Origin: Jiangella asiatica
GTDB taxonomy: Bacteria; Actinomycetota; Actinomycetes; Jiangellales; Jiangellaceae
DNA: 64,000 nt
Assembly: GCF_004349065.1 (NCBI RefSeq)
Contig: NZ_SMKZ01000010.1
Coordinates: 62,001-126,000, forward strand
Direction of reading: 5' to 3'
Each line of letters begins with the position of its first letter. Positions within the stretch are counted from its first letter, which is position 1. The translations under genes were made by a program, and so were the position numbers. The notes under the pieces were generated by a model. It was not told the DNA's origin. It saw nothing but the letters and a program-made list of their open reading frames with translations, and searched no databases. Positions 16,405-64,000 of the stretch are shown here, one piece after another.

Positions 16405-16642
16405 CCCGAACAACCAGCGATCCCTGAACCAATTTGACCGTGTGAGTCACATCGCGGCTGCTGGCGACCGCAGCTTGCGTTGGGCGCGTTCAAGAGGACG
16501 ATGTCGGCGTCGCTGAGGCCCATCACCAGGGGCGTATGTGCTTCACCAGGCTCACATCCATGGTCGGGCGCGCGAACCCCTGGTGATGGGCCTTAGTGTC
16601 GACCGCAGCGAACGCCAGCAGCTCCTTGGTCGGGCGGCAGCT

Positions 16643-17821: not shown

Positions 17822-18190
17822 ATGTTCGTCGCCACCGTCATCTGCAGCGTGTTACTCGCACTGGCCTTCGCGGGGACCGGTGTCGGCAAGGCGAGCGGTA
17901 AGGCCGACATCGTCGATGGGCTCGGCCGGCTCGGGGTCAGTCCACCCCTCGTCCGCGTGATCGGCCTGCTGGAGCTCGGCGGCGCGGCCGGCGTGGCGGT
18001 CGGTCTGGCGGTCGCCTGGCTGGGCATTGCCGCGGCGATCGGTCTCGCCGCTCTCATGATCGGTGCGATCACCACCCACCTGCGCGCCGGTGACTACGGG
18101 GAGCCCACGCGCCGCGGGGGTGCGCTCATGCCCGTCGCGCTGCTGCTCCTCGCCGTCGCGACCCTGGTCCTGCGAGCCGCCACGAGCTGA
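17822..18190 (+). CDS. DoxX-like small membrane protein
   Basis: 122 residues if translation starts at ATG 17822. AAGGA at 17811-17815 is ideally spaced for it, while the in-frame ATG at 17816 is only one base from that site. Either way the start overlaps or abuts the MarR stop, so the genes are coupled. Four hydrophobic stretches (about 2-20, 45-65, 70-90 and 102-120) and the start LALAFAGTGVGKASG fit the DoxX-like family. Function is unknown; redox or detoxification links are common for DoxX relatives next to MarR regulators. Confidence 0.65.
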   Translation: MFVATVICSVLLALAFAGTGVGKASGKADIVDGLGRLGVSPPLVRVIGLLELGGAAGVAVGLAVAWLGIAAAIGLAALMIGAITTHLRAGDYGEPTRRGGALMPVALLLLAVATLVLRAATS

Positions 18191-18294
18191 GCGCGGGCAT
18201 ATGCCGCGACGACGCCCGCCGTGACTGGGACCGCTCGCGGCGGGCGCCTTGTCGTGAGGCAGCCGGGCATCCACCCACGGATGCGTCGGAAGAG

Positions 18295-18390
18295 CCCGAA
18301 ATGATCACGTTCAGCAGGATCGCCCGAGCCTCACCATGATTGCGAGCATGGTGTGACACGAGATTTCGTGCTGAACGTGATCATTTCGGG
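18295..18390. terminator. Long multi-arm inverted repeat between convergent genes
   Basis: A perfect 22-base stem (18295-18316 with 18369-18390) carries TGATCA near its base. Inside it sit two smaller hairpins: CACCATG/CATGGTG (18332-18338 and 18347-18353) and CACGA/TCGTG (18357-18370). The element lies between the ends of the DoxX-like gene and the DUF6351 gene. It is probably a two-way terminator or mRNA-stabilising repeat. Confidence 0.6.
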
Positions 18391-18421
18391 GTCCCGCGGC
18401 CCACGGAAGCAGCAGGAGGCA

Positions 18422-20584
18422 TCAATCGATCACCTGCCAGGTGTCGCTCAGCGGTTGCTGGCCGACGCCGGGCTTCGACCAGTCACACACGCCCGACGGG
18501 AAGATCTCCAGCAGCCGGGCGCGCTCGGCCGGGGTGAAGTCGACCTCGTAGTCGCTCCATTCGACGTCCTTGCGGTGGCACGTCACCACGTCGTCGGTGA
18601 GCGGGGCGCCGGCCACCAGTCGCGGGGTGGAATGGGCGGGGTACAGCTGCCCGCACTCACCGGCGTTGTCCGGGGTGATCGGCTGGACGATCTCGCGGGG
18701 CTGTGCGTCGCGGCTCCAGCAGGCGTCGGTGAGATCGGCCGGCTTGTTCCGTACCACCCGCTGGTGCGCGGGCAGCGCCGAACCGTCGGCCATCAACGCG
18801 GTCAGCCACTGGTCCATGCTGGTCAGGGCATACTGAAGGGTGGGGCTGTTCAGGCTGAACCCACCGTAGCGGCTGTCCTCGACCAGGAAGACCTGGTTGT
18901 CCGCGTCGCCGTTCGCCGCCTCCAGCCGCGCCCGGGTGGCGAACCCGTGCGTCATCATGTGGATGTCGCCGTTCGTCGCGTCCTCGGAGTACGAGCGATA
19001 GTCGATGATCGGCGTGTCGGCCAGACCCGCGCCGCCATACAGGATGCGACCGGTCCGGTACGCGGCACGCGTCGCGATCGGGTCCGCCACGGTGCGGTGC
19101 GGAGTCGGCTGGGCGTCGAGGTCCAAGCCCCCGATGCCCTCGTTGAGGTCGAGGAACTGCTGTGTGGTGATCGCGCCGGAGTTCAGCGCTGCCAGCCCGT
19201 ACTGCACCCCGACGTTGTCCAGCGGCCGCCGGGCGAACCCGGTGGCCGGGTCCCGGCCGTAGACGTTGACGGTGTGGTCGTAGACGTCCCCCCGCGCGCC
19301 GTCGGGGTTGGTCTGCGCGTCGTAGTGCAGCTCGGCGGGCAGCTCGGCGGGGAACTCAGCGGCCGGGTCCAGTCGATTCGCCCCCTTGCTTAGGTTGCGG
19401 ATGCTCTGCCACCGCCCGAAGCCGGCGACCTGGCGCTGCTCCTCCTGGCTGAACTCGCCCGGCGCGACCTCGGTGAAGTAGTGCTCCAGCAGCCGAGCGT
19501 CGAACAGCGTGATGTTCGTCGCGGACGCGACATCGGGGAAGGTCCTCCCGACCACGATGCCGTCGAGCAGACCCGGATAGTTGTCGGCGATCTGGTGGCT
19601 CTGGTAGGAGCCGCCCGAGGAGCCCCAGCCGATGGTGAACAGCGGGTCACCGTACCGCTCGACGAACCGTTCCTTCACCATCATCATCGTCTCGGCGGCC
19701 AGAAGGTCGTTGCAGTTGTTGCCGAAGACGTTCAGCGACGCCGACGCGACCGCGTAGCCGCGACCGAGCATCTCCGGGTCCAGGACGCCGCCGGTGTCCG
19801 TGCCCTGGGTGTACCAGCCGCGCCGGCAGCCGCCGCCGAACGTGTAGATGAGCCGGTCGTTCCAGCCGGGGCCGCGCTGATGGAACGAGGGTTCCTCCGC
19901 GGCCGGGTCGTGCAGCATGGAGATCTGGTAGATCGCCCGGTTGAGCGTGCCGGTCTCGATCCGGATCAGGAACGGGACCGTCTCCCCGGTGATGGTTGTC
20001 GTCCAGGCCAGGTCGTCGGGTCGGACGGACGGGTCCGGCAGTGGCTTCGTCTGCCCGGCGGTCGACCGGTACGCGTAGTCGACCCGGGTGGCCGCCGAGC
20101 AGTCGTCGTCGAGCGGGGCGCCGAGCGTGCCACCGTCGACCAGACGGAACAGGTCGGTGGTGCAGACGTACGGTGTCTGGTGCGGACCGCTGATCACCGG
20201 ACCGGCGGCTGGGTGGTTCGTCACGACGAGTTGGTCGCGCAGCGACCCCGCGGTCGCGACCAGGCGGTTGCGTCCGGGGCGGAGTCGGTCGACCAAGCCG
20301 GTGAGGGTATGTGCGTCCGCGTCGGCCCGGAAGGAGCTGGTGACGTCCGCGCCGTCCCGTGAGATCCGTACCTCGTCCAACTGTGTGTCGCGCGGCACCT
20401 CCACTGCGACCAGCACATCGTCCGCCGTGACCATCTCGGGTCGGGCCGACAGCGATACGAGGCGCAGACTGTCTGCTTCCCCAGCCACTGCCGACCAGCC
20501 CGGCTGCGTCAGGACTGCCGACACGAGCGAGACGACGGCGCAGGCCGCGGCCAGAGTGGGGCGGCGTCGTGCGAGGAGAGTCAT
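18422..20584 (-). CDS. Secreted DUF6351 (tannase-like alpha/beta hydrolase) protein
   Basis: 720 residues. The start is ATG 20584, with GGAGG six bases upstream and a signal peptide (ARRRPTLAAACAVVSLVSAVL) directly after it; the longer open frame upstream is not supported. The whole mature protein aligns with residues about 839-1520 of the propeller fusion protein. Shared features include SARPEMVTADD near the start, SGPHQTPYVCTT, the nucleophile elbow GWGSSGG (serine near 322), DNYPGLLDG and the conserved HGFATRARL region. In the fusion protein LDHGGF occurs near the C-terminus, whereas here the same place reads SRYGGF. Function is inferred only: an extracellular esterase. Confidence 0.85.
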   Translation of the reverse strand: MTLLARRRPTLAAACAVVSLVSAVLTQPGWSAVAGEADSLRLVSLSARPEMVTADDVLVAVEVPRDTQLDEVRISRDGADVTSSFRADADAHTLTGLVDRLRPGRNRLVATAGSLRDQLVVTNHPAAGPVISGPHQTPYVCTTDLFRLVDGGTLGAPLDDDCSAATRVDYAYRSTAGQTKPLPDPSVRPDDLAWTTTITGETVPFLIRIETGTLNRAIYQISMLHDPAAEEPSFHQRGPGWNDRLIYTFGGGCRRGWYTQGTDTGGVLDPEMLGRGYAVASASLNVFGNNCNDLLAAETMMMVKERFVERYGDPLFTIGWGSSGGSYQSHQIADNYPGLLDGIVVGRTFPDVASATNITLFDARLLEHYFTEVAPGEFSQEEQRQVAGFGRWQSIRNLSKGANRLDPAAEFPAELPAELHYDAQTNPDGARGDVYDHTVNVYGRDPATGFARRPLDNVGVQYGLAALNSGAITTQQFLDLNEGIGGLDLDAQPTPHRTVADPIATRAAYRTGRILYGGAGLADTPIIDYRSYSEDATNGDIHMMTHGFATRARLEAANGDADNQVFLVEDSRYGGFSLNSPTLQYALTSMDQWLTALMADGSALPAHQRVVRNKPADLTDACWSRDAQPREIVQPITPDNAGECGQLYPAHSTPRLVAGAPLTDDVVTCHRKDVEWSDYEVDFTPAERARLLEIFPSGVCDWSKPGVGQQPLSDTWQVID

Positions 20585-36939: not shown

Positions 36940-37584
36940 GTGGCGCCTGAGGGGCTCTCAGCCAACGGGTCGACCGGAGCCTCGACCCGTACCGCCGAGC
37001 GCGCCCTGGACCTTCTCCGGCAGCTACCCCCGACGTTCACGTACACCCAGGCCCGCCAGGCGGGCCTCAGCCATCGCGGGCTGTACGGCCTCCGCGGCGC
37101 CGGCATCGTCGAGCCGCTGGGCCGAGGGCTCTATCGTCGGGTCGACGCGGTACTCACCGACCCGACGCTCACCGAAGTTGCCGTCCGCGCGCCCCTGGCG
37201 ACGTTGTGCCTGACCAGCGCTTTGGTCGAGCACGACCTGAGCGACGCCATCCCGACGGCGCCCCACCTGGCGCTGCCGCGGGGCAGCCGGTTCCCATCAA
37301 CCACCGGGCCGGTGACATGGCACGCCTTCGCCGCCGAGACATTCGAGCTCGGCCGCATAAGGAGGCGAGTGGACAGTCAGCTGCAGCTCGGCCTATACAA
37401 CGCGGAGAGAACTATCGTCGACACCTTCCGGTTGCGACACCTGACCGGCTCGGACGAGGCATACGAGGCACTACGCCGCTGGCTGAGCCGGCGTGGCTCA
37501 CAACCCAGCACGCTGCTGACGATGGCCGGACACTTCCCCCGGACGCTCCCGAGCATCCGGCACGCACTGGAGGTTCTGCTGTGA
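36940..37584 (+). CDS. abiEi: AbiEi-type antitoxin (type IV toxin-antitoxin)
   Basis: 214 residues if started at GTG 36940, which fits a leaderless transcript from TATACA at 36925; ATG 36922 is the alternative and would overlap that -10. An N-terminal winged helix (ALDLLRQLPPTFTYTQARQAGLSHRGLYGLRGAGIVEPLGRGLYRR) is followed by the C-terminal antitoxin domain with ATLCLTSALVEHDLSDAIPTAPHLALPRGSR and YNAERTIVDTFRLRH. This is the AbiEi_4/AbiEi C-terminal pattern. It overlaps the toxin start (GTGA). The protein should neutralise the nucleotidyltransferase toxin and repress the operon. Confidence 0.8.
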   Translation: MAPEGLSANGSTGASTRTAERALDLLRQLPPTFTYTQARQAGLSHRGLYGLRGAGIVEPLGRGLYRRVDAVLTDPTLTEVAVRAPLATLCLTSALVEHDLSDAIPTAPHLALPRGSRFPSTTGPVTWHAFAAETFELGRIRRRVDSQLQLGLYNAERTIVDTFRLRHLTGSDEAYEALRRWLSRRGSQPSTLLTMAGHFPRTLPSIRHALEVLL

Positions 37585-38486
37585 CGACATCCCCCGGCCG
37601 CCGCCCCACGAGAGCCACGGCCGGGGGACGCGCCTACCTGGACCTGCGCCGCCACGCCCGCGCGACCGGTCGCGACACCGGCGAGGTGCTACAGCTCTAC
37701 GTCCTCGAGGGGTTCCTCGACAGGCTGCGGACGTCGCCGCTCGCCGATCGCTTGATCCTCAAAGGCGGCGTGCTGCTGGCGGCCTTCGACACCCGGCGCC
37801 CCACCCGCGACATCGACGTCGCGGCCCTCGACCTCGACCGTGACGCCCAGAGCGTCCTCCATGCCCTCGGCCGAGTCGCCGCGGTCCATGTCGACGACGG
37901 TCTTGCCTTCGACCACGGCGCCGCTACCGCCACGGCCATCCGCGACGACGAGCTGTACGGCGGCATCCGGGTCACGATGCCCTGCTCGCTCGATCGGGCC
38001 CGGATGCGCTTCCACGTGGACGTCAATGTCGGCGACCCGATCTGGCCGGCACCGCGCCCGATCGAGCTGCCCCGGCTGCTCGGCGGATCGATACGCCTCC
38101 TGGGCTACCCGCTGAGCATGGTGTTCGCGGAGAAGCTCGTCACCGCCGCCGAACGAGGGGCTGCGAACACCCGCTGGCGCGACTTCGCCGATGTCTACCT
38201 GCTGTCGCGCCGCCACGACCAGGACGGCACGGAGCTCGTCGTGGCGATCAGGCGAGTGGCCGAGCATCGCGGAACAGAGCTCCACAGAGCCACGGTCGAC
38301 CTCGACGGCTTCGCCGACCTCGCCCAATCGAGGTGGCGGGCGTGGCGCAACCGCCTCGGCCTGGACGACCGCCTGCCCGAGAGCTTCGCCGAGGTACTCG
38401 GCGAGGTCGACGCTTTCGCGGCGGCGGCGCTCGACGGTTCCGCGGCGGGCCGGCACTGGTCCGGCGTCGCGCGCCACTGGACCTGA
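37581..38486 (+). CDS. abiEii: AbiEii-type nucleotidyltransferase toxin
   Basis: 301 residues from GTG 37581, with GGAGG seven bases upstream. Four motifs of the AbiEii/DUF1814 nucleotidyltransferase family are visible. They are LILKGGVLLAAF with RPTRDIDVAAL (motif I, the metal-binding D-x-D), FHVDVNVGD (the third carboxylate), EKLVTAAERG (motif III lysine) and RWRDFADVYLL (motif IV). Members of this family transfer nucleotides to tRNA 3' ends and stop growth, or act in phage abortive infection. All key residues appear intact, so the module should be active. Confidence 0.85.
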   Translation: MTTSPGRRPTRATAGGRAYLDLRRHARATGRDTGEVLQLYVLEGFLDRLRTSPLADRLILKGGVLLAAFDTRRPTRDIDVAALDLDRDAQSVLHALGRVAAVHVDDGLAFDHGAATATAIRDDELYGGIRVTMPCSLDRARMRFHVDVNVGDPIWPAPRPIELPRLLGGSIRLLGYPLSMVFAEKLVTAAERGAANTRWRDFADVYLLSRRHDQDGTELVVAIRRVAEHRGTELHRATVDLDGFADLAQSRWRAWRNRLGLDDRLPESFAEVLGEVDAFAAAALDGSAAGRHWSGVARHWT

Positions 38487-47044: not shown

Positions 47045-47452
47045 ATGGACCGGAACTCGGCTACCACCCTCCTGGACGACCTGCACACCGCGCAGAACGC
47101 CTATTACGGCGGCGGCGACGGCACCCAGCTGCGCGCGCTGCTGACCGACGACATCACCTGGACGGTGCCCGGCGACAACGCGATCGCCGGCACCTACCGC
47201 GGCGTCGAGGAGGTGTTCGCCTACTTCGACCGGCGCCGCCAGCTCGCCGCGGGGACCTTCCGCATGCACCGCCGCGACGTGCTCACCGGCGACGGCGACA
47301 CGATCGCGGCGCTGACCGACGGGACCGCGTCTGTCGACGGCGCGGACTGGGCATGGTCGACGGTGGGCCTCTATGGCCTGCGCGACGGGCTGATCGCGCG
47401 CTGCTGGCTGCTGCCGCTGGACCCGGAGCTCTTCGACCGCGTCTGGCGGTGA
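47045..47452 (+). CDS. NTF2/SnoaL-like protein
   Basis: 135 residues from ATG 47045. YYGGGDGTQLRALLTDDITWTVPGDNAIAGTYRGVEEVFAYFDRR is the standard first half of SnoaL-like proteins in the NTF2 fold, and the second half continues with alternating strands to a terminal CWLLPLDPELFDRVWR. Function unknown; these proteins can be isomerases, cyclases or dehydratases. It follows the regulator by 22 bases, so it is probably co-transcribed. Confidence 0.8.
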   Translation: MDRNSATTLLDDLHTAQNAYYGGGDGTQLRALLTDDITWTVPGDNAIAGTYRGVEEVFAYFDRRRQLAAGTFRMHRRDVLTGDGDTIAALTDGTASVDGADWAWSTVGLYGLRDGLIARCWLLPLDPELFDRVWR

Positions 47453-47466
47453 TCGTCCGTCACCCA

Positions 47467-47526
47467 GCCCATGATCATCAACGATCTCCGGGGTCATGGC
47501 ACCCGAGATCGTTGATGATCATGGGC
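47467..47526. terminator. Perfect 22-base inverted repeat between convergent genes
   Basis: Arms 47467-47488 and 47505-47526 are perfect complements with a 16-base loop. They contain ATGATCAT near the outer end. The repeat lies downstream of the NTF2-like gene and overlaps the stop codon of the convergent SRPBCC gene, so it probably terminates both. Confidence 0.6.
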
Positions 47527-48019
47527 GCGGCCGCCCGTCCGCCAGGACGGCGTCCATCTGGCCGATCGTGCCGGCGAAGATGTCCATCGCGCCCAGCTCG
47601 GCCAGCTGCTCCATATGCTCGCGGGAGCTGAAGACAGAGCGGACCACCATCCGCGTGCCATCGCCGTCGGCCGACAGCTCGACCCTCACGCTCGTCGTGG
47701 GCGCGCCCGCGACGGGGTCACCGTTGCGATCGGCGAACCCGTCGGTGAACTCCAGCGCCGTCGGCGGGGTGACCGCGGCGACGCGCCACCGGCCGCGGCT
47801 GCTCTGGCCGCCGGAGCCGGTCAGCACATAGGTGACCACGCCGCCGGGGCTCAGGTCGTACGAGTGGACCGACATCGGGAAGTCCGGCGGCCCCCACCAG
47901 CGCTCGAGCTGGCGCGGGTCGGCCCACAGCTGCCAGACCCGCTCGACCGGCGCGGCGAACTCCGCGACCACGGTGAGCGTCAGTGCGTCGAAGTCCTTCT
48001 CCACCCGGGTGACCGTCAT
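47519..48019 (-). CDS. SRPBCC/AHSA1-like (ATPase activator homologue) domain protein
   Basis: 166 residues, ATG 48019. The AHSA1-like pattern is clear: LTVVAEFAAPVERVWQLWADPRQLERWWGPPDFPMSVHSYDLSPGG at the start, and EFTDGFADRNGDPV and MVVRSVFSSREHMEQL later. Proteins of this kind are often of unknown function and occur beside small DHFR-like or ArsR genes. It starts 24 bases after the DHFR-like gene ends, on the same strand, so the two form an operon. The terminator-like repeat covers its last codon. Confidence 0.85.
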   Translation of the reverse strand: MTVTRVEKDFDALTLTVVAEFAAPVERVWQLWADPRQLERWWGPPDFPMSVHSYDLSPGGVVTYVLTGSGGQSSRGRWRVAAVTPPTALEFTDGFADRNGDPVAGAPTTSVRVELSADGDGTRMVVRSVFSSREHMEQLAELGAMDIFAGTIGQMDAVLADGRPRP

Positions 48020-60160: not shown

Positions 60161-62896
60161 ATGGATCTGAACCTGAACCGTCGCAGCTTCCTGCGAGGGA
60201 CCGGTGCCGTGACCGCCGCGGCCGTCGGCGCCGTGTCCGGGCTGCGGCTGCTGACACCGGCGGAGCGGGCGCTCGCCACACCGGAGGGAACGGTGAAGCT
60301 GGACATCCTCTACATCGGAGCCCATCCCGACGACGAGGCCGGCACGCTCGGCGCGCTCGGCCAATGGAACGAGTACCACCAGGTCAGGTCCGGGGTCATC
60401 ACCATCACCCGCGGCGAGGGCGGCGGCAACGCCGTCGGCCTGGAGGAGGGCCCGCCGCTGGGCCTGCTGCGCGAGGCCGAGGAGCGTCGCGCGGTCGCCT
60501 ACGCCGGGATCGAGCACATCTACAACCTCGACGGGCTGGACTTCTACTACACCGCCAGCGCGCCGCTGAGCGAGCAGATCTGGGGCCACGAGAGCACCCT
60601 GGGCCGCATCGTGCGCGTCGTGAGAGCCACCCGGCCCGCTGTCGTCGTCACGATGAACCCGTCGGCCACCGACGGCAACCACGGCAACCACCAGCAGGCG
60701 GCCAAGCTCGCCGTCGAGGCCTACTACGCCGCCGCCGACCCCGACCGCTTCCCCGAACACGCCGAGGAGGGCTTCGAGCCGCACCGGGTCGGCCGCATCC
60801 TCCAGAGCGGCGCGGTGGGCCGCGGCCCACTCGGCCCGGACGGCCCGACCACCGGCTACACCCCGAGCGTCCCCACCGACGTCGTCTTCGGCACCTGGGA
60901 CGGCACGGTCTCCGAGCGCCATGGCGGCGAGCGGTGGAGCGTCGTCAAGACCTGGGCCGCGCACGAGTACGTCACCCAGGGCTGGAGCACCCGGCCGTTC
61001 CCGCCGTCGGACCCGGCACAGATCTCCAGCCAGTGGTTCACGCTCATCGACACCCGCACCCCGTACCCGGCTCCGACGACGGGCGGCGTCGCCGCGATCC
61101 AGGGCGCGGCCCTGCCGGCTCCGGACGGGCTGCCGCTGGGCACCGAGTTCTACCTGGAGCCGCCGGGCTTCCACGTGCTGCCGGGGTCGACATTCGAGCT
61201 GGTCGCATACGCCAGGGCGGCCGCGCGGCAGCCCGTGCCGGGCGCGACCGTGGCGGTCGAGGTGCCGGCCGGCTGGACGGTGACCGGCTCCGGCCGACTG
61301 GGCACGCTGGAACCGGGCCGGGCCGCGTCGGCGCGGTTCACCGTCACCGTGCCGGCCGACGCCGTGGTCGGTGAGCGGTTCGTCCTGCACGGCACGCTGA
61401 CCAGCCCGCAGCACGGTACCGGCGCCGCCGGCGAGGTCGTCGAGATCGGCGCGCCCGTGCGCGGCACGCTGGAGCCGCTCCCGGAGATCGCCCGATTCCG
61501 CGAGTGGACCGCCGCCAACCGGGTCCAGCACCTGGACAGCCTCATCCTGCCGCTGCTGGCGCTGGGCAGCGGGCTGTCGCGCGAGATCCGCGTCGACCTG
61601 GCCAACACCGGCGACCACCCGCACTCGGGCACCGTCACGCTCTCCGCGCCGGCCGGGTTCTCGGTGACGCCGGCGTCGCGGAACTACCAGGACCTGGCGC
61701 CGGGCGGCACCGGCGCCGTGACGTTCACCGTCACCAACACCGACCCCTCGCTGCCCACCTCGAACCGGGCGCCGAACGACGGCCGGTACCCGATTCAGAT
61801 CGTCACCACCTACGACGGCGGCAGCGGCACCGAGGACGCCGCGCTGCTGCTGGTGCCGGCGTTGTCGCTGGAGAAGGCCGCGACCCCGCCGCGGGTGGCC
61901 GGCGACGTCGACGAGAGCGAGTTCCCCGGCGAGGTCATCGACATCTCCACCCGCTGGGAAGGCACCGAGGCGCCGGCCGCGGACATCTCCGGGCACGCCA
62001 GGATCACCTACACCGACGACGCCTTCTACGTCTACGTGAAGATCACCGACGACACGCTGGGCTTTGTGCTGCCGCCGGAGGACACCAAGCGCCAGCGGCG
62101 CACCGACTCCGTCGAGATCAACATCGACCCGCGCGGCACGTCGGCCAACACGTCGACGGTGTTCATCGCCGGCATCTTCCCGATCACCGACGACCCCGCC
62201 AACGGCAACCCGCCGAGCTTCCACCGCGACCGCGACAACCGGCAGGGACCCGGACCGCAGACCGCGCCGGGCATGGAGGTCGCATCGAGCGTCAGCGACC
62301 CCTACGCCGGGTACACAGTGGTGGCCAAGATCCCGTTCGACGTGCTGCCGGACACCCTGGACCCCCAGCACGTCGGGTTCAACATCCTGGTCAACGACTC
62401 CGACACGCAGGACAAGAGCAGCCAGACCCGGATCGGCTGGTCGACGTGGCGGGGGGTGCGCGCCGACCCGTACCGCTGGGCCGTCGTGTCATTGCCCGAG
62501 CTGGCGACGAGCCCGTCCACGCCGAAGGAGCCGGTGCTGCCCGACACCGCCGCCAAGAGCGTCGACTCGCCCCAGAGCATCCTGCAGTCGGCCGGCGACA
62601 TCGTCCCGCTGGGCGGCTGGCGCTCGCTGGGCGACGGGTCGATCGAGGTCCTGGACGCCTCGGCCGATGCCGGGACGGCGACCGTGCGGCTGCGTGCCCG
62701 CCGGGCCGGCCGGGCACGGGTGTTCGTCTGGGACGGCACGACGGTGCTCGGGCGGCAGGACGTGGACGTCAGCGCCGGCCTGCACACGGTGAGCGTTGTG
62801 CTGTCCAACGAAAGCGGCGACGGCGACGGGGACCGCTGGGCCCTGGTGTCGCTGGAGTCCGGCGAGGCCAACGACGCTGCCGCCCGCCGCCTCTGA
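60161..62896 (+). CDS. Tat-exported PIG-L deacetylase with NEW3-like and CBM9-like domains
   Basis: 911 residues, ATG 60161, preceded by AGAGGG. NRRSFLRGTGAVTAAAVGAV is a Tat signal. Residues about 45-290 carry the PIG-L/LmbE pattern: GAHPDDEAGT (zinc-binding HPDD), TRGEGGGN, NLDG and DGNHGNHQQA. Two NEW3-like beta-sandwich segments follow (about 330-430 and 475-550). Residues about 583-760 (DESEFPGEVIDIS, ARITYTDDAFYVYVKITDD, RTDSVEINIDPRG) match CBM9-type sugar-binding domains. The likely role is extracellular removal of acetyl groups from a polysaccharide or glycoconjugate. It is divergent from the ROK operon. Confidence 0.88.
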   Translation: MDLNLNRRSFLRGTGAVTAAAVGAVSGLRLLTPAERALATPEGTVKLDILYIGAHPDDEAGTLGALGQWNEYHQVRSGVITITRGEGGGNAVGLEEGPPLGLLREAEERRAVAYAGIEHIYNLDGLDFYYTASAPLSEQIWGHESTLGRIVRVVRATRPAVVVTMNPSATDGNHGNHQQAAKLAVEAYYAAADPDRFPEHAEEGFEPHRVGRILQSGAVGRGPLGPDGPTTGYTPSVPTDVVFGTWDGTVSERHGGERWSVVKTWAAHEYVTQGWSTRPFPPSDPAQISSQWFTLIDTRTPYPAPTTGGVAAIQGAALPAPDGLPLGTEFYLEPPGFHVLPGSTFELVAYARAAARQPVPGATVAVEVPAGWTVTGSGRLGTLEPGRAASARFTVTVPADAVVGERFVLHGTLTSPQHGTGAAGEVVEIGAPVRGTLEPLPEIARFREWTAANRVQHLDSLILPLLALGSGLSREIRVDLANTGDHPHSGTVTLSAPAGFSVTPASRNYQDLAPGGTGAVTFTVTNTDPSLPTSNRAPNDGRYPIQIVTTYDGGSGTEDAALLLVPALSLEKAATPPRVAGDVDESEFPGEVIDISTRWEGTEAPAADISGHARITYTDDAFYVYVKITDDTLGFVLPPEDTKRQRRTDSVEINIDPRGTSANTSTVFIAGIFPITDDPANGNPPSFHRDRDNRQGPGPQTAPGMEVASSVSDPYAGYTVVAKIPFDVLPDTLDPQHVGFNILVNDSDTQDKSSQTRIGWSTWRGVRADPYRWAVVSLPELATSPSTPKEPVLPDTAAKSVDSPQSILQSAGDIVPLGGWRSLGDGSIEVLDASADAGTATVRLRARRAGRARVFVWDGTTVLGRQDVDVSAGLHTVSVVLSNESGDGDGDRWALVSLESGEANDAAARRL

Positions 62897-62899
62897 CCG

Positions 62900-64000
62900 T
62901 CACCGGTTCCCGTGATCATGTTCCCTCGGGTCGCTGAGTGACCCTGAGGGAACATGAGCACGGGAGTGTGCCGCCCGGGCCCGACGGTGTTCGGCCACGG
63001 CCAGCGCGCCCAGGACCAGCAGGACGAACGCCGACGTCACCACCCCGCTCGCGTTGGCCATCACCGGCACCGCCGCCACCATGGCGACCAGTGCGACGAC
63101 GGCGGGCCAGCCGACGCGGTGACCGACCCGGATACCGCACGCCATGAGGCCGAGCAGGTACAGCGCCGGACCGCCGAGTACCGCGACGGCACCCACGACT
63201 TCCATCTCGTGATCGGGGTGGGCGACGACGAGCTCGTCGCCCACCGCCGTCAGCACGATGCCGCCGACGATCGGCAGGTGCAGGTACGTGTAGATGTCGC
63301 GGCCCAGCGCGCCGACCTCGGTCATCGTGCTGTGGCCCATCCGATGCAGGATGACCGGCGACGCGCCGGTGAAGTACAGCCACCACAGCGCCACCGAGCC
63401 CAGGAACGACAGTCCGAGAGCCAGGCCGACCTCGGCGCCCAGGTCAGTACCGGCCGCCGTCGCCCCGGTCAGCACGATGCTCTCGCCCAGCGCGATGATG
63501 ATGAACAGCTGGAACCGTTCGGCGAAGTGGTGGCCGTCGATGGACCACTGGCTCATCGGCGTATCACCGACACCGGGCAGCCAGTACCGCACCAGCGGCG
63601 CCGCCAGGTCCAGGCCCAGAGCCACCAGCCACAGCGGCCAGCGGGCGTCGTCGACCAGGCCGCCGGCCACCCACAACGGCGCGGACAGGACGCTCCAGGC
63701 GAGGATCTGCCGGAAGTTCTGGTGAAACACGCCCGGTGGCGTCACCGCGACGACGAACGCGTTGCGGCCGATCTGCAGCGCGGCGTAGCTGCAGCCGAAC
63801 AGCAGCGCCAGATCGCCGAAGCCGCGCGGGATCGCCACGGACATCAGCAGGCTTGCCAGCATCACGAAGACGAGCACCAGCCGGACCGGCGCGGTCTCCG
63901 GATCGAACCAGTTGGCCATCCAGGTCGTGTAGTTCCACGCCCAGTAGACGGCGACCAGCATGAACGCCGTCTCGGCGGCGCCTTGCCAGCTCAGGTGCTC
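62900..64000 (-). CDS. LtrA-type low-temperature-requirement membrane protein (N-terminus beyond window)
   Basis: At least 366 residues are readable. An internal ATG exists at 63961, but the in-frame codons before it stay open to the window edge and read EHLSWQGAAETAF. This suits the region just after the LELFFDLVFVFAVTQ motif of LtrA proteins, so the true start lies outside. AWNYTTWMANWFDPE, GDTPMSQWSIDGHHFAERFQLFIIIALGESIVLTG and about ten hydrophobic segments confirm the family. The role of LtrA is poorly defined; the name comes from Listeria growth in the cold. The last 20 residues are encoded by the terminator repeat and are probably not conserved. Confidence 0.85.
   Translation of the reverse strand, partial: EHLSWQGAAETAFMLVAVYWAWNYTTWMANWFDPETAPVRLVLVFVMLASLLMSVAIPRGFGDLALLFGCSYAALQIGRNAFVVAVTPPGVFHQNFRQILAWSVLSAPLWVAGGLVDDARWPLWLVALGLDLAAPLVRYWLPGVGDTPMSQWSIDGHHFAERFQLFIIIALGESIVLTGATAAGTDLGAEVGLALGLSFLGSVALWWLYFTGASPVILHRMGHSTMTEVGALGRDIYTYLHLPIVGGIVLTAVGDELVVAHPDHEMEVVGAVAVLGGPALYLLGLMACGIRVGHRVGWPAVVALVAMVAAVPVMANASGVVTSAFVLLVLGALAVAEHRRARAAHSRAHVPSGSLSDPREHDHGNR
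62909..62964. terminator. Long imperfect inverted repeat between convergent genes
   Basis: Arms 62909-62932 and 62940-62964 pair over about 23 positions with one mismatch and one bulged base, around a seven-base loop. GTGATCATG lies near the outer end. It follows the PIG-L stop and falls inside the last codons of the convergent LtrA gene, so it probably acts as a terminator for both. Confidence 0.55.

Follow-up and report, generated by a model that had tools for sequence, protein, structure and literature searches.

Among bacterial repeats, REP palindromes have a wide distribution, and their dispersal has been attributed to HuH-type RAYTs. The features described for REP/REPIN-RAYT systems include tagged palindromes that occur both as singles and as inverted pairs, together with a bracketed gene that is kept vertically (PMC8266576, PMC3733652, PMC3116915). 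The palindromes of the actinobacterium Jiangella asiatica described here resemble these systems (REPtrons) in several respects: they are short, tagged and extragenic, they reach hundreds of copies with a bias to gene 3' ends and to convergent and tandem gene pairs, inverted pairs stand beside singles (in family A), a vertically inherited gene, one per family per genome, is bracketed by cognate repeats, and copy number roughly tracks this gene. They differ in the foot, which is GTAG or CGTC in REP/RAYT systems and TGATCA here, with other sequences in most of the distant genomes, and in the enzyme, which is a HuH/Y1 tyrosine transposase there and here a protein that matches AbiEi_4 and no Y1/HuH family. 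Because neither the GTAG/CGTC tag nor the HuH enzyme is found, the palindromes are not assigned to REP/RAYT, and a nuclease-based analogue of that system is proposed.

Other described systems share parts of this arrangement. In a structural model of the protein, residues 1-190 resemble the type IV toxin-antitoxin antitoxin AbiEi, with its predicted winged-helix and antitoxin fold; unlike AbiEi, however, the protein has an extra C-terminal nuclease-like half, and no AbiEii toxin is encoded among the six immediate neighbours of the three J. asiatica genes. In the same model, residues 193-297 appear to align with the EDxHD nucleases (I-Bth0305I and Vsr-like proteins) and with DUF559 nucleases, with E, D and E-x-D conserved, whereas the gene, in contrast to those of EDxHD homing endonucleases, does not lie in an intron or a phage gene and is paired with dispersed palindromes, and the fold match is moderate. 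MITEs are likewise short and non-autonomous, have inverted terminal repeats and are related to a longer gene-bearing copy, but here there is no target-duplication signal, and the gene-bearing copy encodes no recognised transposase and keeps a conserved locus. No paper connecting such proteins with dispersed palindromes was found in the open-licence PMC literature, preprints excluded. The comparison presented below makes it probable that these are mobile, REP/REPIN-like palindromes that carry a tag and are not autonomous, and that every family has its own vertically inherited AbiEi-nuclease protein, by which it is spread or with which it evolves.

Tagged palindromes in the window and in the genome

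The window is the whole stretch of 64,000 nucleotides that was analysed (contig NZ_SMKZ01000010.1, positions 62,001 to 126,000). The three long inverted repeats named in the original prediction are all present, the first at 18295-18390 and the others as listed in Table 1. The arms of 22-24 bases that had been claimed are perfect 22-bp arms in elements 1 and 2 (in element 2, alternatively, 30-bp arms at 90%) and hold approximately in element 3, with 23-bp arms at 91%; the palindrome of element 1 reaches out to 18292-18393. TGATCA, expected in every arm, occurs in both arms of elements 1 and 2 and in one arm of element 3, the other arm reading TGAGCA. The hexamer is found 21 times in the window vs 7.1 +/- 2.4 in shuffles. 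Placement between convergent genes holds for the window elements, with the qualification that, according to the gene calls, the minus-strand genes next to elements 2 and 3 extend with their 3' coding ends into these elements. The single-family reading was ruled out, since the elements differ in body and cognate gene: they represent three sequence families with different arms and bodies, and what they have in common is the TGATCA tag.

Table 1. Elements, tags, neighbouring genes and the control operon in the window
Feature	Position	Strand	Details
Element 1	18300-18385	.	family A, 86-bp inverted pair (REPIN-like); ends AATGATCACGTTCAGCA / TGCTGAACGTGATCATT
TGATCA tag, element 1 left arm	18302-18307	.	
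TGATCA tag, element 1 right arm	18378-18383	.	
Element 2	47467-47526	.	family B1, 60-bp palindrome GCCCATGATCATCAACGATCTC...GAGATCGTTGATGATCATGGGC
Element 3	62908-62965	.	family C, degenerate/imperfect palindrome GTGATCATGTTCCCTCGGG...CCTGAGGGAACATGAGCAC; also read as TCCCGTGATCATGTTCCCTCGGG...
DoxX_2 gene	17822-18190	+	left of element 1
DUF6351 gene	18422-20434	-	right of element 1
SnoaL-like gene	47045-47452	+	left of element 2
AHSA1-like gene	47519-48019	-	right of element 2; final codons inside element
PIG-L / CBM9 gene	60161-62896	+	left of element 3
LtrA gene	62900-63961	-	right of element 3; open frame runs through element
Ordinary AbiEi + AbiEii type IV toxin-antitoxin operon	36940-38486	+	internal control; AbiEi 36940-37584, AbiEii 37581-38486

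As RNA, both strands of all three elements fold better than 200 of 200 shuffles (z -8.9 to -10.9). The T tract is absent after the stems of all three elements when these are read by eye, as had been predicted, and a terminator pattern scan of the element-2 region found none at element 2; by the test for intrinsic terminators, hairpins are present and the T tract is not. An Rfam scan of the window gave 0 matches at the gathering score. In element 2, TGATCA (47519-47526) is the source of the stop codon of the minus-strand gene. As TGA is read on both strands, the tag can give stops to either neighbour, and at other junctions, such as C37:150654-150703, it is able to provide a stop codon to one or both flanking genes.

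The core GTTCAGCACGA is present in 205 copies in the 7.03-Mb genome and the longer family-A end motif TGATCACGTTCAGCA at 267 exact sites, with 0 for the reversed control of each; 11 sister species have 0-19 exact sites of TGATCACGTTCAGCA each. In the 2.05 Mb that were read, family A comprises 29 inverted pairs (86 bp in 23, 44 bp in two, and 217, 245, 272 and 293 bp in one each) and 27 singles, which have sharp limits and a length of ~76 nt and which include, besides a chance intragenic match (C68:47036), both termini of the element that carries the A gene. Inverted pairs are seen for family A, and families B and C read as single symmetric palindromes. B1, to which element 2 belongs, and B2 have CCCATGATCATC in common with differing bodies, and family C, that of element 3, carries ATGTTCCCTCG. 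DNA-uptake-type repeats seem unlikely, since the ~76-nt, sharply bounded unit of the singles exceeds a 10-12-mer. For this family-A unit, folding gave a weak consensus, which has been set aside.

Composite forms are also found. Palindromes of ~105 bp have the tag and arm of B type together with a core like that of family A (G000:C33:24904-25039, C35:89877-89982 and C134:10563-10669, where G000 is the J. asiatica genome), and C60:12425-12467 is a short form of these from which the apical part is missing, which suggests apical deletion or modular assembly. This short form and the 44-bp form of family A were considered as 'empty sites' and not retained, because apical deletion fits equally well. 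Several untagged palindromes rich in CATCACCAGG/CCTGGTGATG (window 16513-16596; C37:197068-197137; C57:127797-127866) are similar to the internal portion of family A and could form a kindred family whose ends differ.

Presence and absence at an orthologous junction were observed directly for element 2. In the related genome G003 (5.6 Mb, one contig), both flanking genes are kept in convergent orientation (86% and 82% identity), the element is absent, and the spacing between the matches is 23 bp vs 91 bp in the window. The site is an insertion or loss polymorphism between species, in which either state may be the older. No target duplication is visible at this empty site, and the counterpart of the minus-strand gene in G003 has, by eye, an earlier stop. 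For element 1, the DUF6351 gene lies beside another gene in G007 and G010, where the element is missing, and therefore provides no clean empty site.

Resident genes bracketed by cognate palindromes

Families A and B1, those of elements 1 and 2, have one gene each in J. asiatica with the same palindromes on both its sides. In sister species, family-A ends enclose 1.2-kb elements that encode a protein of ~320 aa; the J. asiatica A gene is a single copy (G000:C35:123099-124052), lies in 1.2 kb between family-A ends, and its product is 75% identical to the G006 protein. Two further J. asiatica paralogs, with 29% and 28% identity, are found on C134, with B1 palindromes on both sides, and on C96, with B2 on both sides, and the arm of element 2 also flanks the B1 gene (G000:C134:98468-99397). 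Family C palindromes enclose homologs in Jiangella endophytica, J. rhizosphaerae, J. muralis and J. aurantiaca (L212-L215). C-type genes occur in sister species, and, judged by match score, none is among the matches listed for J. asiatica, in keeping with the eroded sequence of element 3.

A repeat shared by the left and right flanks at a score of >=18 was found at 22 of 25 Jiangellaceae homolog loci (30 loci from 20 genomes of the family, J. asiatica included, of which five were dropped, four because they lie at contig ends and one for its odd length). The corresponding figure for control genes of comparable length, which were taken from the J. asiatica genome alone, is 2 of 320. Among named loci, which belong partly to the same species as the 25-locus set, 25 of 34 pass, and in the rest of the phylum 13 of 27 (29 loci, two dropped at contig ends), the palindromes of these distant loci being mostly without TGATCA. 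The homologs that fail the flank test thus number 3/25, 9/34 and 14/27. The TGATCA foot also occurs in the flanks of most of the Jiangellaceae homologs that were read. Homologs at E <= 1e-12 are present in at least 95 of the 296 sampled genomes of the phylum, of which J. asiatica is one, a number that is a lower bound because seven candidates per genome were scored. In one unrelated genome (G162), 24 cognate half-sites at <=3 mismatches, four of which are flanks of the gene itself, compare with 1 in the reversed control. As a side observation, one of the two control genes that pass, G000:C68:45248-46016, has a strong flank repeat (score 35) and is perhaps another mobile gene.

The arms were compared at the 17 of 31 loci where both were callable. 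Outside the tag, the arms left and right of the same locus are 86% identical and arms of different loci 45%, and the within-locus identity lies above all 10,000 permutations (maximum 0.654). Arm similarity correlates with protein similarity (r = 0.73, n = 13, with L205, L217 and L218 left out; 1 of 5,000 permutations as high), a correlation that is not an independent proof of co-evolution, because orthologs inherit protein and arm together by common descent. At these loci the arms vary gene by gene and follow the protein sequence.

The number of palindromes roughly follows the presence of the gene across 12 related genomes, in a comparison that ignores their kinship. Exact family-A ends number 267 in J. 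asiatica, 10 in G001, 19 in G002, 7 in G006, 16 in G007 and 12 in G011, all with an A-type gene; G008 has a C-terminally shortened match and 1 exact end, in G003 an A-type gene is present but its ends have diverged, and the exact J. asiatica motif is found 0 times, and G004, G005, G009 and G010 have 0 ends and, judged from match lengths, no match of A-type length. For family C the agreement, good for A, is modest: genomes with a C-type match (244-258 bits) have 6 (G001, where the gene copy has an internal stop codon), 6 (G002), 29 (G003), 1 (G004), 10 (G006), 4 (G007), 11 (G008) and 9 (G009) copies, and those without have 3 (G000), 0 (G005), 0 (G010) and 3 (G011). The family-C motif adjoins the C-type gene in seven of these eight genomes, G001 being the exception, and in G004 and G007 the copies are few despite the gene and all adjoin it.

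The A gene occupies the same position, between a PAC2 family gene and a Cys-tRNA-synthetase-like gene, in 8 of 10 A-type loci with callable neighbours, across two genera; these identities come from Pfam on the J. asiatica copies, and the Cys-tRNA-synthetase-like neighbour is taken by us to be mshC. The convergent junction of these two genes holds the A-type gene at L155, L157-L161, L163 and L164. The six immediate neighbours of the three J. asiatica genes are, by Pfam, PAC2, Cys-tRNA-synthetase-like, cation efflux, FAA hydrolase, ArsR-like and Met-tRNA-synthetase-like genes, with an AbiEii toxin at 0 of the 6, and the B1 protein had no match in a comparison with plasmids. Like RAYTs, the protein behaves as the product of a resident gene, given the lack of an AbiEii neighbour and, for B1, of a plasmid match.

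The protein, of ~315 aa, consists of an AbiEi-antitoxin-like N-terminus and a probable PD-(D/E)XK (Vsr/homing-endonuclease-like) C-terminus. For the B-type protein of L186, modelled with AlphaFold2 (pLDDT 84, pTM 0.63), residues 1-190 match AbiEi of S. agalactiae (6y8q, Z 12.2 over 179 residues) and Rv2827c (1zel, Z 8.7), and residues ~53-192 also align with the nucleotidyltransferases MenT1 and ANT(2'') (Z 6-8). Residues 193-297 match NGO0050, a putative endonuclease-like protein (3hrl, presumably a DUF559 protein; Z 7.3 over 87), and the catalytic domain of the homing endonuclease I-Bth0305I (3r3p, Z 6.5 over 79). When the C-terminal part was modelled alone, I-Bth0305I again ranked first (Z 6.0), and values of Z 3.4-3.6 were obtained for Hjc resolvase (3.6) and AbaSI/PvuRts1I. 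A Z of 6-7 for the nuclease half is moderate, in a range that may reflect only a common arrangement, and the model has low-confidence stretches there; Foldseek on this half returned nothing at E <= 0.001. The conserved E, D and E-x-D of the C-terminal half would fit the predicted PD-(D/E)XK site; the acidic residues conserved in the family-A protein include D238, E249 and D251. Among the 16 members scanned with Pfam, AbiEi_4 is found in 16 and, weakly, DUF559 in 2, with no Y1_Tnp/HuH transposase family at E <= 0.1, and NCBIfam gave no match. Sequences of solved structures yielded AbiEi/AbiGI-type matches only (E about 0.003), viral contigs yielded no relative of the A-type protein, and phages one partial match to the A protein (36%), in an unannotated record.

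Genomic placement, mobility and alternative readings

The predicted bias to convergent junctions is strong beyond the window and not exclusive. Among the 56 tagged palindromes in 2.05 Mb (76 rows less 10 'tag', 7 'B?' and 3 chance rows), 24 lie between convergent genes, 26 between tandem genes and 4 between divergent genes, with 2 at gene ends, vs 9.7 convergent and 17.0 divergent expected under uniform intergenic placement; without the two flanks of the B1 gene (n = 54) the counts are 23, 25, 4 and 2. The palindromes are centred in intergenic DNA in 54 cases and in the 3' end of a gene in two, and 38 lie <=30 bp from a gene 3' end vs 12.1 expected, a number reached in 0 of 2,000 runs. Like placement is described for REP palindromes of other bacteria (PMC3733652). 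As untagged intergenic palindromes are similarly convergent (24 of 63), position alone cannot separate terminators from mobile repeats, and a convergent bias may be common to strong hairpins in general.

This placement bears on the possibility that the palindromes are operators, that is, binding sites of AbiEi-like repressors that serve autoregulation and a dispersed regulon. In their N-terminal half these proteins match AbiEi, and binding to inverted repeats in the promoters of their own genes is described for AbiEi and Rv2827c (PMC7319586), which provides a precedent for the reading of a palindrome by that half. Operators would, however, not be expected at both ends of the gene, the 3' side included, nor to be depleted at divergent promoters, and repression needs no conserved nuclease-like half; furthermore, the true AbiE operon of the window is without such palindromes, 3.1 kb around its AbiEi gene (L129) containing 0 inverted repeats of score >=13. 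The operator explanation is, therefore, unlikely.

We regard as quite unlikely, too, that the elements are the clade's two-way terminators, kept by selection at gene ends, and that the isolated nuclease genes are bracketed because they need terminators. The crowding at 3' ends and convergent junctions agrees with such a role, as do the high stability of the hairpins on both strands and the convergent placement of many untagged palindromes, but terminators do not require a common sequence, yet the copies are alike and match the flanks of one gene, a kind of flank sharing that ordinary genes hardly display. Nor would termination account for the difference in copy number between the sister species (0-19) and J. 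asiatica (267), for the lack of element 2 at a conserved convergent junction in G003, or for the missing T tract. The genus-specific two-way terminators put forward in the original prediction are incomplete at best as a reading, because the gene-palindrome association extends to other families of the phylum; its other option, a mobile repeat family inserting at gene ends, is well supported by the hundreds of copies, the empty site of element 2, the proximity to 3' ends and the bracketed cognate genes.

A mobile family could also consist of ordinary MITEs or REPs that are moved by a DDE transposase or a RAYT encoded elsewhere, the nuclease gene being a captured passenger, and the inverted-pair anatomy is indeed like that of MITEs and REPINs. 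Several paralogs, however, each have their own matching palindrome, and this weakens the passenger reading, because one capture cannot yield several paralog-palindrome pairs. In addition, both 1.2-kb family-A-ended elements in the relatives examined encode the AbiEi-nuclease protein, and the 29 family-A pairs are without a target-duplication signal (the flanks agree over >=4 bp in three of them, and shuffling of the flanks gives an expectation of 3.5). We consider the passenger reading very unlikely. An 838-bp family-A pair in a relative has reading frames that, by eye, are unlike the AbiEi-nuclease protein. Finally, a defence or genome-maintenance nuclease (a cruciform resolvase or a restriction-like enzyme) with palindromes as protected self-marks or substrates is highly improbable: the AbiEi half comes from a phage-defence antitoxin family and the nuclease half aligns, at the low Z given above, with Hjc resolvase, but the amplification in one species and the bracketing by private palindromes are left unexplained, and none of the six genes next to the three is a defence gene.

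For tagged palindromes mobilised by a resident AbiEi-nuclease protein, the following mechanism can be envisaged. The AbiEi half would read the cognate arm and the TGATCA foot, and the nuclease half would cut at or near the foot, the substrate being a cruciform, duplex DNA or a hairpin in a single strand. Repair might then copy or paste the palindrome into new intergenic sites without a visible target duplication. Copies would last where a strong hairpin is harmless or useful, mainly just past stop codons and between convergent genes, and those retained may serve secondarily as two-way transcript ends.

On balance we favour, with somewhat less assurance, the broader view that this is a second, independent kind of REP system across Actinomycetota, the mobiliser of which would be an AbiEi-antitoxin fold fused to a homing-endonuclease-like nuclease; many toxinless genes matching AbiEi models would then be mobilisers with private palindromes. 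If true, a nuclease-type mobiliser would represent a convergent solution, and a gene family of the phylum-wide occurrence given above would acquire a function. The many natural protein-palindrome pairs could be a source for DNA-recognition rules, and the long hairpins at many gene ends in these actinobacteria would have a possible reason. The question can be tested directly with one protein and one 86-bp DNA.

A further J. asiatica paralog (L125, G000:C37:116315-117205) has another palindrome, GCTCGTACTCGAATTTCTTGC..., at its 3' end (C37:117191-117260), which occurs again at C37:278108-278179; this is possibly another gene-palindrome pair with a different tag, or a duplicated short reading frame.
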